This document shows positions 10,356 through 33,556 of a stretch of DNA of 52,559 nt, piece by piece. Source of the DNA: Nocardia ninae NBRC 108245 (GTDB lineage: Bacteria; Actinomycetota; Actinomycetes; Mycobacteriales; Mycobacteriaceae); assembly GCF_007990755.1 (NCBI RefSeq), contig NZ_BJXA01000067.1, forward strand, positions 1 through 52,559, written 5' to 3'. Position 1 is the first letter of the stretch. Each line of letters begins with the position of its first letter. A program made the translations under genes and the position numbers. The notes below the pieces were generated by a model that saw nothing but the letters and a program-made list of their open reading frames with translations, had not been told where the DNA came from and ran no database searches.

Positions 10356-10526
10356 GATCCGAGATTACGTCCCCGCACGGCACCGCGTCGCATCCAATAC
10401 CAGTTGGGATAGCCTAGAGGCACACCGGAGGGCGCCAGAGCCTCGTCCACCGTGGCGAGCGAGCTCCGCACCACCACCCGCGCCTGCCCCGCCGGTACCG
10501 ACCTGCACGCCGAATACGAGGACGTC

Positions 10527-10790
10527 ATGCCCAAGTCGAAGGTCCGGAAGAAGACCGATTACACGATCAACCCTGCCAGCCGGACGCCGGTGAAGGTGAA
10601 AGCCGGACCGTCGCCGGTCTGGTACGTCACCATCATGCTCGGTTTCATGCTCGCCGGGCTGGTGTGGCTGCTCGTCTATTACCTCGCCGCCGATCACATC
10701 AGCTGGATGAGTGATCTGAACGCCTGGAACTTCCTGATCGGATTCGGCCTCATGGTGGTCGGTCTGATCATGACCATGCGGTGGCGCTGA
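10527..10790 (+). CDS. crgA: CrgA, cell-division membrane protein
   Basis: An 87-residue protein with the CrgA signature start MPKSKVRKK, a basic N-terminal tail and two hydrophobic helices (about 32-52 and 65-83, [20 protein letters not shown] and [17 protein letters not shown]). CrgA links FtsZ, FtsQ, FtsI and CwsA at the septum in actinobacteria. ATG 10527 was chosen because family members begin MPKSKVRK; upstream frame lacks homology. Position next to trpG, the PH-domain gene and ppiA matches mycobacteria. Confidence 0.95.
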
Positions 10791-10861: not shown

Positions 10862-10890
10862 TGTGGATGAACCTGTGGACAACTCGAGGA
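10862..10890 (-). promoter_or_regulatory. Two DnaA boxes fused to an oriC-type CTCGAGGA element
   Basis: On the - strand, TCATCCACA (10862-10870, one mismatch to TTATCCACA) and a perfect TTGTCCACA (10874-10882) lie 12 bp apart. The 16 bases at 10875-10890 (GTGGACAACTCGAGGA) are identical to 31208-31223 inside oriC. The pair sits 20-50 bases before the PH-domain gene. Confidence 0.6.
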
Positions 10891-10910: not shown

Positions 10911-11393
10911 GTGACACCTGATTCTCCCGATCCACAGCCCCGCGAAGCCACGCCTCGGCTCGCCTGGACCACGCCGACACCGGCCCTCGTCGCGGTGACC
11001 GGTGGCGGTATCGTGCTGGCCGTTGCCGCGATCCTGTCCAACGAGGCCGCGAGCCGCCTGCTCATCGGGCTGGCGGCGGCGGGGCTCCTGGTGATGGCCG
11101 GCCTCGGCTTCCGCCAGCGACCACGGCTCACCGCCGTCGCGGGCGCCGACCCGCGGATGGTCGTGCGCACTCTGCTCGGTGCCGACGAATACACCCGCGA
11201 CCAGATCATCCGTGCCAGGGTGGTGGACTACCGCCGCCTCGGCCGTAAGATGCCGATGCTGGAAATCGACGTCGACCACGACGGCACCGAGCGGCTGCTG
11301 ATCTTCGGCCGCTGGGATCTGGGTGCCCGGCCCGACGACGTCTACGACACCTTGGTACGCACCCTCCGGTTGTCCGGCGAGACCACCCGCTGA
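10911..11393 (+). CDS. PH-domain membrane protein (Rv0010c-type)
   Basis: A 160-residue protein from GTG 10911. Residues about 24-68 form two hydrophobic helices (VAVTGGGIVLAVAAIL and LLIGLAAAGLLVMAGLG), followed by a cytoplasmic bacterial PH-like domain (about 70-150: RPRLTAVAGADPRMVV, ending FGRWDLGARPDDVYDTL). It corresponds in position and layout to the PH-domain membrane protein beside crgA and ppiA in mycobacteria. Molecular function is not established. Its promoter region carries two DnaA-box-like sites, so DnaA may influence its expression. Confidence 0.8.
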   Translation: MTPDSPDPQPREATPRLAWTTPTPALVAVTGGGIVLAVAAILSNEAASRLLIGLAAAGLLVMAGLGFRQRPRLTAVAGADPRMVVRTLLGADEYTRDQIIRARVVDYRRLGRKMPMLEIDVDHDGTERLLIFGRWDLGARPDDVYDTLVRTLRLSGETTR

Positions 11394-29346: not shown

Positions 29347-30522
29347 TCAGCCCGGCAGCCGGACCGGCATCAACAGGTAGGTGTAGGGACTGTCCAGTGC
29401 GGCGAACGCACCCGACTCGAGTACCTTCGGCTCCTCGTCGACCGCGGGCAGCAGCACCGCGGGTCGGCTCGGCGTGGTGAACCCGAAGGTGACCCGCTCG
29501 GCATGCAGCGCGGACAGGCCGTCGATCAGGTAGCCCGGGTTGAACGCGATAGTCAGCGATTCGCCGCGGAAGTCGGCTTCGAGCCATTCCTCGGCGCGAC
29601 CGGCGTCGTCCCCACCCGCGGACAGTTGCAGTCCCTCGGTGGAGAACTCCAGACGCACCTGGGCACCACGCTCGGCGACCAGGGCGACGCGCTTGATGGC
29701 CTCGGTCAGCACCGACACCTGCAGGGTGGCGATGGAGGTGTGTTCCTTCGGCAGCAGCTGACGGAACTTCGGGAACTCGGCATCGAGCAGCCGGGTGGTG
29801 GTCCGGCGGCCCGCGTTCACGATGCCGAGCAGGCCGTCCGAGCCGGCACCGGTGCCGAGCGAAAGCTGCACGGGGGCATCGGAGGTGCCCAGTGTCTTGC
29901 CTGCCTCCGACAGCGTCCTGGCCGGGATGAGCACTGCGGTCTCGATATTCGCGTCGGCGGGCGACCATTCGATGTGCCGGACCGCGAGGCGGAATCGGTC
30001 GGTGGCCGCGAGCACCACCTTCGAGCCCTCGATCTCGACGCGGATACCGGTGAGCATCGGCAGCGTGTCGTCCCGGCCCGCCGCGACGGCGACCTGGCCG
30101 ACCGCGTTGGCGAACACCTCGACGCTCAGTTCGCCGGACTGCTGCGGTACCTCGGGAAGCTGGGGATAGTCCTCGACCGGCATGGTCGGCAGGGAGAACT
30201 TCGCACTGCCACAACTGATCAGCACGCGGGTGCCGTCGACGGAGACGTCGACCGGCTTGTTCGACAGTGCCTTGGTGATGTCGGCGAGCAGCCTGCCGGA
30301 GACGAGCACCTCGCCGGGACCGGCGACCTCGGCGGCGACGCGCATCTGCGCGGAGACCTCGTAGTCGAAGCCGGAGACCGTCAGCCCGCTGTCGTCGGCC
30401 ACGAGCAGCACACCGCCGAGCACGGGCACAGGAGGCCGGGACGGGAGGCTACGTGCCACCCAGGCAACGGATTCCGCGAAGTCCTCTCGGGCGACCCGAA
30501 ACTTCATGCTTGCAAGCTCCAT
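29347..30522 (-). CDS. dnaN: DNA polymerase III sliding clamp (beta subunit)
   Basis: A 391-residue three-domain clamp with the family start [40 protein letters not shown] and the closing [14 protein letters not shown] that forms part of the protein-binding pocket. Two starts are possible, ATG 30522 and ATG 30507 (MKFRV); the first matches relatives that begin MELA. It is the first gene to the left of oriC, transcribed away from it. Confidence 0.97.
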
Positions 30523-30960
30523 CGCCCGATCTGTCCTCTCCCAGTTCCGTGAGCTGTTATGCGGTGGCCGGACATTCGTCCTCCAAGCCTGTCGGCTCGT
30601 TCAACGTTGGTTGTTCGCGAAGGGTGCTGGATCGGCCGCCATCAAAAGTGTGGCACAGGCGACCGACAACAAACCGTACCCGCGACTGGAGCTATGGCCT
30701 AGTCCGACCCGCTAGATGGCGGGTGGCGAGTCGCGAGCCGAGCAAGGAGAGCCGGAGGTCCCGAGTCGTGTCAGCAGCGAGGCGGGTTGTCAGCGATCCG
30801 GTGAGTTGCCTCGGGCCGACGAGACCATCCGCTGAGTCAGGGATCGAGTCCCGTGCGATCGATGGGTGTGTGGGATTGACGCATCCAGGATCCACTCCGG
30901 CTCTTCTCCTTGCCTTGGGACAGGAGTCCCTCGAGACGTGACCCTCTTCGACCGACTTTC

Positions 30961-31020
30961 CACACACCTGTTTTCAAGAGAGTTCTTCTAGGAGAAGAAC
31001 TGAAGTAGTAGTAGGCACTG
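30961..31020. other. AT-richer segment of oriC with inverted repeat, possible unwinding element
   Basis: Contains AGTTCTTCT (30981-30989) - AGG - AGAAGAACT (30993-31001), a perfect inverted repeat, preceded by TTTTCAAGAG and followed by GAAGTAGTAGTAG. It is the least GC-rich part of oriC and lies beside the box cluster, as expected of a DNA-unwinding element. That role is inferred. Confidence 0.4.
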
Positions 31021-31183
31021 TGGAATCTGTGCACTGACGCCGTATCCGCTGGTCAACGGGCGTGGTGCCGTGGGGATGAGCAGAGAGTGTCTCGAGGATG
31101 AACGAGGGGCGTCTGTGGAGTTCCGAAGTTGTCCCACATTCATCCTCGAGCGCTCCTCGAGTTGTTCCACCGAATTCACCCGG

Positions 31184-31192
31184 TTGTTCACA
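31184..31192 (+). promoter_or_regulatory. DnaA box in oriC
   Basis: TTGTTCACA, one mismatch to TTGTCCACA. Confidence 0.7.
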
Positions 31193-31206
31193 CGTGTGTA
31201 CCGATA

Positions 31207-31215
31207 CGTGGACAA
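31207..31215 (-). promoter_or_regulatory. DnaA box in oriC joined to a CTCGAGGA element
   Basis: On the - strand TTGTCCACG, one mismatch to the consensus. It directly abuts CTCGAG at 31216-31221. The 16 bases 31208-31223 recur at 10875-10890. Confidence 0.7.
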
Positions 31216-31220
31216 CTCGA

Positions 31221-31260
31221 GGAATCCTCGAGGACTCCACATGGACTCCTCGAGGATTCC
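31221..31260. repeat. oriC palindrome pair 1 (22-bp period)
   Basis: Copy 1, GGAATCCTCGAGGACTCC at 31221-31238, runs into ACA to give TCCACA, the right half of a DnaA box. Copy 2, GGACTCCTCGAGGATTCC, is at 31243-31260. Starts are 22 bp apart, about two helical turns. Confidence 0.8.
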
Positions 31261-31396
31261 CCAACCCGGTGACCGAACGCCGCGCTGGTCACCGCCTGTG
31301 CGCAAGTCGGGCTGGGGATGCTGGGGATGAAGCCCTGTTAGCGGAGACCGCGCAGTCCATCCCCACACCTGTTAGCCAATCGGTGCACAAACCGGT

Positions 31397-31436
31397 GGAT
31401 TCCTCGAGGACTCCACAAGGATTCCTCGAGGAATCC
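31397..31436. repeat. oriC palindrome pair 2 (22-bp period)
   Basis: Copy 3, GGATTCCTCGAGGACTCC at 31397-31414, and copy 4, the perfect palindrome GGATTCCTCGAGGAATCC at 31419-31436. Both run into ACA, giving TCCACA. Starts are again 22 bp apart. The pair lies just before the dnaA terminator. Confidence 0.85.
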
Positions 31437-31443
31437 ACAGGGC

Positions 31444-31492: not shown

Positions 31493-33556
31493 TCAGCGCG
31501 AGCGCTGTTTGATTCGGGCTGTTAGTTCTTGGACCTGGTCGTACACCCGACGCCGCTCGGTCATCTCCTTGCGGATTTTCTTCTCCGCGTACATCACCGT
31601 GGTGTGGTCGCGGCCGAACGCCTGACCGATCTTCGGCAGGGACAGATCGGTCAGCTCGCGGCACAGGTACATGGCGATCTGGCGGGCCTGCGCGAGTGGC
31701 CGCGCCTTGCCCGGCCCGGTCAGCTCCTCGAGCGTGGTGTTGAAGTACTCGGCGGTGACCGCCATGATCGTCGCCGCGTTGATCTCCAGCGCCGCCGTAT
31801 CGGGCATCAGGTCGCGCAGCACGACCTCGGCCAGCGGCAGATCCAGCGGTTGCCCGTTCAGCGAGGCGAACGCGGTCACCCGGATCAGCGCGCCCTCCAG
31901 CTCGCGGATATTGCGCTCGACCCTGGTGGCGATCAGTTCCATCACGTCGTGCGGCACGTCCAGGCGGTCCATCCGAGCCTTCTTGCGCAGGATGGCGATC
32001 CGGGTCTCCAGCTCGGGCGGCTGCACGTCGGTGATCAGACCCCACTCGAACCGGGTCCGCAGCCGTTCTTCCAGCGTGGCCAGCTGCTTGGGCGGGCGGT
32101 CCGAGGAGACGACGATCTGCTTGTTGGCGTTGTGCAGGGTGTTGAAGGTGTGGAAGAACTCTTCCTGGATACCTTCCTTGCCCTCGATGAACTGGATGTC
32201 GTCGACCAGCAGGATGTCGGTCTCGCGGTAGCGGCGCTTGAACGCCACCTTCCGGTCGTCCCGCAGGCTGTTGATGAAGTCGTTGGTGAACTCTTCGGTC
32301 GAGACGTACTTCACCCGCATGCCGGGAAACAGCCGCTGAGCGTAGTGGCCGGCCGCGTGTAGTAGGTGCGTCTTGCCCAAACCCGAAGCGCCCCAGACGA
32401 ACAGCGGGTTGTAGGCGCGTGCGGGCGCCTCCGCGATGGCGACCGCGGCGGCGTGCGCGAAGCGGTTGGACGCGCCGATGACGAACGTCTCGAAGGTGTA
32501 CTTCGCATTCAGGCTGGCCGAGGAACTCGACGGGGCCGAGCTCTCCTGCGACTTGGTGAAGTAGGTCGGCCAGGAGTTACGGGCGTTGACCACGGGCTCG
32601 TCGTCGCGGTCGGACCGCGGGTTCTCCGACTCACGGACCGACTCGTGCGCGGCCGCCAGGCCGGGATCGTCGGACTGCGCCTCGCGCACCGGCGCCCGGA
32701 CCGGACCGCGCACGGCGGCGGGGCCTGGGTCGGGTGTGAACAACGACTCCTGGCCGGGCGGGATCGATTCGCGGCGCGGGGGCAGGCCCTGCTCGCGGCG
32801 CTGCGCCGGGGTGGGTTCGTGGCGCGGCGCGGACTGCAGGTCGGCTTGGGGGGCGTATTCGTCGCGGACCGGGTATTCGTCGTGGCCGTAGTCCTGCCGG
32901 TCGTACTCGCCCGCGGACGCGTACTCCGGCGCGTACTCGGCGTCGGTGTAGTCGGATCCGCTGTTGTAGCTGGGGGTTTGTGCGTACTCGTTGGTCTGGG
33001 CGTAGCGCGGCTGCTGGTAATCGTCGCGGCCTTGGTATTCGCCGCCTGGGTAACCGGCTTGGCCGCGGTTGTTGTCGCCACGTCCGTTGTCGCGAGGTCC
33101 ACTGTCGCGGGGCCCGTTGTCCCGATGACCGTTGTCCCTGGGACCGTTGTCGCGATGACCGGTATCGCGGGGACCGTTGTCGCGGTGCCCGTTGTCCCTG
33201 GAACGTTCGGGCGTGCTCGTCATCCTGGCGTGCCGGGGGTTGTTGCCTGGCCGCTCGGTGCTCTGGGCGGCCGGCGCGGCGATGCGCACGCCGAGCCCTT
33301 CCACCTGGGGGCCGAGGCGCCGGGCCAGTGACCGCAGGATCGGCTCGCGCAGATCGCGTTCGATGGCCTCTTGAGCCAGCGAGGAAGGCACCGAGAGCAG
33401 GGCGAACCCCTGCGCCACCGTCAGCGGCTTGACCAGTTTCAACCAGGCCTGCTGCGCTCGGGTCACCGGCGGAATGGCACCGTCGGATGAGCCGGTGGTC
33501 AGCTCGGCAACTACCTCGGGCCACACCGTGGCCAACACGTCCTGCTCGTCGTCCAT
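31493..33556 (-). CDS. dnaA: DnaA, replication initiator, with expanded linker
   Basis: A 687-residue initiator from ATG 33556 (strong ribosome site GGGGAGGAAA). Domain I about 1-95; domain II is unusually long (about 96-350), disordered, with an RDNGx pentapeptide repeat at 120-159 and Tyr/Gln/Asp-rich sequence after; AAA+ domain III from about 353 with Walker [17 protein letters not shown] and Walker [16 protein letters not shown]; domain IV ends with the DnaA signature [18 protein letters not shown], which reads the DnaA box. Mycobacterial DnaA is about 507 residues, so the extra length is in the linker. A DnaA box dyad upstream suggests autoregulation. Confidence 0.98.
33080..33199 (-). 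repeat. 15-bp coding minisatellite in dnaA (RDNGx)8
   Basis: Codons 120-159 encode eight consecutive RD(N/T/S)G(H/P/R) pentapeptides, mostly RDNGH and RDNGP. The regular 15-base period suggests expansion by slippage. Confidence 0.9.

Follow-up and report, generated by a model that had tools for sequence, protein, structure and literature searches.

CTCGAG sites abutting DnaA-type boxes at the Nocardia replication origin and their co-occurrence with a candidate C5-cytosine methyltransferase

The region between dnaA and dnaN of Nocardia ninae NBRC 108245 carried a conserved element in which the hexamer CTCGAG directly abuts DnaA-type boxes, and among the 73 family genomes compared, clusters of this hexamer occurred only where one particular C5-cytosine methyltransferase was also encoded. 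We estimate at roughly 0.6 the probability that methylation of CTCGAG, probably through the hemimethylated state after origin firing, tunes the loading of DnaA. The DNA analysed, hereafter the window, was the 52,559-nucleotide stretch of contig NZ_BJXA01000067.1.

The 18-bp pattern GGANTCCTCGAGGANTCC was present in four exact copies on the plus strand, all lying between dnaA (31493..33520, minus strand, with the stop near 31493; the stretch as used for the searches) and the ORF at 29347..30522 (minus strand, from its translation), which we take to be dnaN from its position. Copy 1 (GGAATCCTCGAGGACTCC, 31221..31238), copy 3 (GGATTCCTCGAGGACTCC, 31397..31414) and copy 4 (GGATTCCTCGAGGAATCC, 31419..31436, a perfect palindrome) ran on into ACA, copy 2 (GGACTCCTCGAGGATTCC) spanned 31243..31260, and the starts were 22 bp apart in both pairs. 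The first-pass annotation, made from the letters of the window, had described these positions, the spacing, the palindrome and the ACA extensions, all of which held. When up to one mismatch was allowed, the window contained four copies against a mean of 0.00 in 100 dinucleotide shuffles, and the four origin copies were the sole perfect matches in the 9.7-Mb genome, which had no match with one mismatch; chance was therefore excluded as their source. The seven genome matches with two mismatches were scattered or overlapped the origin copies.

The core hexamer CTCGAG occurred 35 times in the 52.6-kb window (shuffle mean, 24.1), and nine of these formed a dense cluster within about 500 bp in the non-coding dnaA-dnaN region, the same number as had been claimed for 30930 to 31430. 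Besides the four 18-mer cores at 31227, 31249, 31403 and 31425, the cluster comprised a hexamer at 31216..31221, which stands 11 bp away from that of copy 1, a pair with an 11-bp step at 31145 and 31156 (31145..31161), one at 31091..31096 in a TTCATCCTCGAG context on the minus strand, and one at 30930..30935. The pairs 31145/31156 and 31216/31227 were both 11 bp apart, and the Nocardia sites largely follow an 11-bp lattice (11 and 22 bp), the 22-bp period corresponding to two of its steps. Two 11-bp pairs elsewhere in the same genome (C82:7539 and C83:29101) had no further CTCGAG in the surrounding 2.1-2.2 kb. Outside the origin the hexamer was undepleted, at 26 occurrences against the whole-window shuffle mean of 24; deamination of m5C could deplete CTCGAG, and a Vsr endonuclease could offset such a loss.

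The 18-mer pattern was strongly conserved in the genus. The exact pattern was present in 145 of 148 genomes, with 409 sites in total. In the 90 genomes whose origin was retrieved, 253 of 256 genome-wide copies fell within the sequence taken from around dnaA, the others being found in G056 (two) and G124 (one). This sequence extended about 1.35-1.5 kb beyond dnaA; for some genomes it additionally covered dnaA itself together with as much as 1.5 kb on its other side. An origin alignment was built from 80 of the 90 fetched genomes, the ten with fewer than five CTCGAG, several of which had longer intergenic regions cut at 900 bp, having been dropped before counting. In this alignment, the frequency of the modal base was 0.942 in the 18-mers and 0.770 in the remaining origin core, and when four 18-base windows were drawn at random 20,000 times, 5 draws equalled the conservation of the 18-mers. 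Among these 80 genomes, selected for at least five CTCGAG, eight of the nine hexamer positions were kept in 44 to 80: 31227 and 31249 in all 80, 31156 in 78, 31403 in 77, 31425 and 31091 in 74 each, 31145 in 70 and 31216 in 44. The unconserved ninth, at 30930, was kept in two. Drift at the neutral rate, the outcome named beforehand as speaking against the sites, was thus not what the relatives displayed, and the 18-mers represent a real, strongly conserved origin element that is probably functional.

Two observations within the genus are recorded here. In G056 (L168:2275-2303), two overlapping 18-mers stood 11 bp apart, 12.7 kb from dnaA and beside a TTGTCC-type sequence; they may be a copy that has moved, or may serve to titrate DnaA. 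A divergent group of Nocardia (G003, L201:680-1150; G004, G014, G103, G108 and G140) carried 1-4 perfect canonical DnaA boxes and 1-4 CTCGAG in the 900 bp that follow dnaA, within which dnaN was not met; this is the reverse of the main group, with its fewer canonical boxes and more CTCGAG.

The hexamers were fixed in position relative to DnaA-type boxes, in the register CTCGAG-N3-TCCACA, in several genera. In Nocardia, 183 of the 227 TCCACA located 0-24 nt after CTCGAG were exactly 3 nt after it, and the corresponding figure in the pooled non-Nocardia genera was 20 of 40; these contexts were unique sequences but are related by descent. The window contained six CTCGAG-N3-TCCAC against 0.04 expected, five of them in the origin. 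The Nocardia 18-mer reads as the two-sided form TGTGGA-N-TC-CTCGAG-GA-N-TCCACA, in which ACA may be missing from either end or from both. DnaA-type 9-mers directly abutted the hexamers of copy 1 (GACTCCACA, 31233..31241, plus strand), copy 3 (GACTCCACA, 31409..31417, plus strand) and copy 4 (GAATCCACA, 31431..31439, plus strand). These 9-mers had 2-3 mismatches to TTRTCCACA and hence lay outside the canonical boxes as defined here (at most one mismatch). Two 9-mers with one mismatch were found between dnaA and dnaN, TTGTTCACA (31184..31192, plus strand) and TTGTCCACG (31207..31215, minus strand), the latter a near-canonical box directly abutting the CTCGAG at 31216, and a perfect TTRTCCACA was absent from this interval. 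Both the scarcity of canonical boxes and the overlap of a conserved origin element with DnaA half-boxes, as proposed from the window alone, were therefore borne out. A CTACTACTACTT repeat at 31003..31014 (minus strand), which we take to be DnaA-trio-like, adjoined GATTCCACAG (within 31018-31036) and was highly conserved in the genus; together, 31003-31036 is a probable unwinding element.

Outside Nocardia, CTCGAG clusters were detected in genera g10, g15, g20, g23 and g27 and in genome G225 of g22, with steps of 11, 12 or 15 bp. Genera g23 and g10 included 12- and 15-bp arrays with variable flanks, and many 12-bp array units kept the hexamer alone. As flanks and spacings vary among the cluster-bearing genera, the hexamer CTCGAG is the common unit. 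Among 80 named loci, the six of Nocardia and Rhodococcus had 6-13 CTCGAG in the region beside dnaA. The remaining 74 included 58 that were parsed, with dnaN starts located approximately, by pattern; 55 of the 58 had 0-2 CTCGAG and three had 4-5, the latter in 1,500-base stretches in which dnaN was not located. In cluster-free genera, with up to 12 genomes per genus, the top nine words listed included no comparable enriched palindrome, and GTGCAC in g9, g11 and g18 was part of TGCACA boxes.

The sixth match to CTCGAG-N3-TCCAC in the window (10875-10888) lay about 20 kb from the origin, between an ORF at 10452-10790 that we take, from its sequence, to be crgA-like and the ORF at 10911. Here the tandem boxes TCATCCACA and TTGTCCACA were followed at once by CTCGAG (10862..10888, minus strand). 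The crgA region was compared in 20 genomes, of which 11 belong to the genus and nine to other genera. In the genus, crgA was located in eight of 11; both boxes were present in all eight, and the abutting CTCGAG in seven, G047 having CTCGCG. In the other genera, crgA was located in five of nine (G169, G251, G226, G156 and G193), and all five had perfect boxes beside it, none of them with CTCGAG in the abutting register. In G226 a CTCGAG stood 2 nt beyond the opposite end of one box, and in G156 a CTCGAG-N3-TCCAC was found about 50 bp from the boxes, inside the next ORF. In Nocardia there is hence a second locus at which CTCGAG accompanies DnaA boxes.

A search with PF00145 found one C5-cytosine methyltransferase of about 380 aa in 10 of 11 cluster-bearing genomes, the eleventh being the incomplete G161. 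Of three cluster-free genomes, two carried it as well (G188 and G172, but not G209). The copy in the genome of the window (G000:C35:75469-76599) belonged to PF00145/TIGR00675 by profile and was 73-93% identical to eleven other copies, and the gene was present in all eight genus genomes checked, including G047. When ORFs within about 2-3 kb were compared, the conserved neighbour scanned was a Vsr-type gene adjoining the methyltransferase or within about 1.5 kb of it; PF03852 was detected in all three loci scanned, and 13 of 14 further loci had a related ORF. Distant relatives on plasmids (six records) had an adjoining Vsr gene in three and a second methyltransferase in one; in these six records no neighbour was annotated as an XhoI-like nuclease, and one neighbour lacked a Pfam hit. 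Phage relatives were all less than 60% identical. The tree of the enzyme broadly followed that of DnaA, many forks of both being weak, and the enzyme accordingly looks vertically inherited. It is the best candidate for the CTCGAG enzyme.

The joint distribution of enzyme and cluster was tabulated for 73 family genomes. Both were present in 29, the enzyme without the cluster in 13, the cluster without the enzyme in none, and neither in 31, which gave a Fisher p of 1.4e-10, a value uncorrected for kinship and drawn from sites that are not independent within a genus. A cluster was defined as at least three CTCGAG. At least five were counted in 24 of the 29 positive genomes, the threshold being a loose one with four marginal cases (G182 and G201 with four scattered CTCGAG, G003 and G108 with three); the 31 enzyme-negative genomes had a maximum of one. 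The enzyme was scored as present at a match of at least 63% identity, G157 (48%) thus counting as negative, as did G238 and G250, which were not among the matches listed. The table was drawn from the 76 family genomes whose origin had been retrieved, after G096 (origin ending at the contig end), G161 (incomplete) and G088 (stretch cut) had been set aside. Of these, G088 had the enzyme and six CTCGAG in 1,497 bases after dnaA. G161, 66% complete, also had six CTCGAG; the enzyme was not found there, fragments of a different C5-methyltransferase were seen, and it is a possible exception to the pattern.

Clusters were thus absent from all 31 genomes scored as lacking the enzyme, but the converse failed in 13 of the 42 enzyme-bearing genomes, which had 0-2 CTCGAG (four of g16, five of g6, g26, g28, g31 and G260 of g11). 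Because of these 13, the enzyme is not sufficient for the cluster, or it has another main role or specificity, and it is at most necessary. In a kinship-corrected test, in which, as in the comparison of DnaA residues below, Gordonia with its unparsed intergenic region was placed by hand in the cluster-free rows, three supported independent pairs were available (means of 1.5 for, 0 against and 1.5 tied), a number at which significance is unreachable.

The best single contrast was provided by genus g22. G225 carried the enzyme together with eight CTCGAG, in an array of mostly 11-bp steps whose ends carry TGTGGAGTA-CTCGAG in the same register, and the five other sampled genomes (G168, G193, G209, G238 and G250) were without the enzyme and had 0-1 CTCGAG. 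As G225 fell inside g22 (SH-aLRT 80) and the long branch of its enzyme joined the tree about where descent predicts, joint loss of enzyme and cluster in the other g22 genomes is the likely history.

We propose as the origin-control element a CTCGAG methylation site bordered, on a single side or on each, by a DnaA-type box starting at the next base, in its composite form TGTGGA-N3-CTCGAG-N3-TCCACA, with about eight hexamers among weak DnaA boxes from dnaA to dnaN. The candidate enzyme, an apparently solitary C5-methyltransferase encoded beside the Vsr-type gene, would most likely methylate CTCGAG. Firing of the origin would leave the sites hemimethylated, which, directly or via a reader covering CTCGAG and the GGANTCC arms, could change how DnaA loads at the abutting boxes, and the changed loading may time or limit re-initiation, as Dam and SeqA do in E. 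coli. The coupling of methylation to DnaA loading is suggested by the abutting geometry. Against this proposal count the enzyme-bearing genomes without a cluster, the undepleted CTCGAG in the rest of the window, and the conservation of the GGANTCC arms, which exceeds what a plain hexamer methylase would need.

The conserved arms speak for a dedicated, sequence-specific origin-binding protein that, independently of methylation, recognises CTCGAG (in Nocardia together with the GGANTCC arms) along an 11-bp lattice, and that competes or cooperates with DnaA. The 11/22-bp phasing in Nocardia, the near-exclusive location at the origin with no visible regulon, and the overlap of the sites with DnaA half-boxes all agree with such a protein, which would also be compatible with the methylation model as its reader. 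The 12- and 15-bp spacings and variable flanks in other genera, however, fit poorly with one rigid footprint, and the co-occurrence with the C5-methyltransferase is left unexplained. The first-pass annotation had offered another origin-binding protein overlapping DnaA as one of two explanations; the overlap with half-boxes stood, while the partner best supported by the comparison was a putatively orphan methyltransferase. We regard the methylation-independent protein as a less probable explanation that nevertheless deserves weight.

The other explanation offered at the outset, a variant DnaA box specific to the lineage, appears unlikely. DnaA would here bind NNNTCCTCGAG or the palindrome itself, and indeed the TCC of DnaA boxes stands in the same register in TTGTCCTCGAG and in CTCGAG-N3-TCCACA, and CTCGAG-rich Nocardia genomes have few canonical boxes (intergenic stretches partly cut at 900 bp). 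On the other hand, no DnaA residue in domains III-IV separated 39 cluster-bearing from 23 cluster-free sequences at a frequency difference above 0.6, and RDHTTVM was invariant in the 62 sequences compared. The many 12-bp array units that retain the hexamer alone, and the cluster-free relatives that carry canonical boxes with the same DnaA type, likewise spoke against it. A DnaA of changed specificity is thus an improbable partner of the sites.

A different writer was also considered, namely the gamma-class N6-adenine methyltransferase of Nocardia (Eco57I/TaqI type, PF07669). It was present in all six Nocardia first tested, at 56-86% mutual identity, and for MamA of M. smegmatis, an adenine methyltransferase homologue, CTCGAG specificity is predicted by REBASE, according to the available part of PMC7526240. 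Nevertheless, cluster-bearing G072 and the genomes sampled from cluster-bearing g10, g20, g23 and g27 gave only weak matches (E 1e-8 or worse) or none, and the gene was present in cluster-free G163, so that we consider this assignment very improbable. Across 32 genomes, the presence of neither PF07669 nor PF01555 methyltransferases followed the clusters, the latter being patchy (10 of 32). PF02384 methyltransferases, found in 11 of 14 genomes, were diverse, and cluster-bearing G169 and G219 were without them. The adenine enzyme was located at G000:C31:84380-86344 (L260, L289) and also in G003, G017, G088, G096, G108 and G163. It could be a candidate for the orphan ATCGAT m6A methyltransferase that Blow et al. 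(2016, PMC4752239) report, in the part available, for Nocardiaceae.

The perfect or near-perfect 18-bp palindromes are hardly likely to act as single-stranded hairpins, for example as primer or loading sites, since N4 and N15 were complementary in 75 of 250 18-mers against 80.5 expected by chance, and this lack of covariation favours double-stranded recognition.

The methylation reading has close parallels in known systems. The Dam methylase of the Dam/SeqA system of E. coli is solitary, as the candidate here appears to be, and the Dcm-Vsr pair of E. coli consists of a solitary C5-methyltransferase adjoining a Vsr endonuclease, with CCWGG as the Dcm target. We know of no role of Dcm as an origin regulator; unlike that of Dcm, the putative target here is clustered at the origin. 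As at E. coli oriC, where GATC is methylated (PMC13076061, as far as available), short palindromic methylation sites are found among DnaA boxes, but here the site is the hexamer CTCGAG, the modification is probably m5C and not m6A, and the abutment to DnaA boxes is fixed. A likeness by description also exists to MamA and MSMEG_3213-3214 of M. smegmatis, with predicted CTCGAG specificity; these comprise a methyltransferase with an apparent restriction partner, and the available part of that source (PMC7526240) reports no link to origin clusters.

The first-pass annotation knew of no description of these sites, which proved incorrect for the core. CTCGAG clusters between dnaA and a polymerase III gene in Nocardia/Nocardiaceae, their correlation with an orphan methyltransferase specific for CTCGAG, and a proposed Dam-like role in replication are all given in the available part of Blow et al. 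(2016, PMC4752239). Motif, place, taxonomic group and the correlation with a methyltransferase, here a putative orphan, are the same, and as the core cluster is published, the origin 18-mers are part of a described phenomenon. Beyond the available text of that paper go the 18-bp motif, the DnaA-box register, the C5 class, the Vsr partner and the crgA site, and searches of an open-access library turned up neither the 18-bp form nor a fixed register to DnaA boxes. The core is therefore known; the abutment to DnaA boxes, the finer architecture and the candidate C5-methyltransferase/Vsr writer are apparently new. The prior publication of the main association lowers the surprise, and what is added is the link to DnaA boxes and to the C5-methyltransferase/Vsr pair.

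How actinobacteria restrict replication to a single round per cycle is, to our knowledge, poorly understood, and we know of no m5C-based origin control. Now that a writer can be suggested, the composite site is defined and one genus offers a natural contrast, the question of origin control becomes testable in common laboratory strains of Rhodococcus. We put forward tentatively, and with less confidence than the tuning of DnaA loading as such, that Nocardiaceae couple DnaA binding to m5C via the composite of CTCGAG and DnaA box, a putative orphan Dcm-Vsr-like writer and a reader on the 11-bp lattice. If true, this would constitute an m5C-based origin licensing system, which in Nocardia would also act at an extra-origin DnaA site near crgA.
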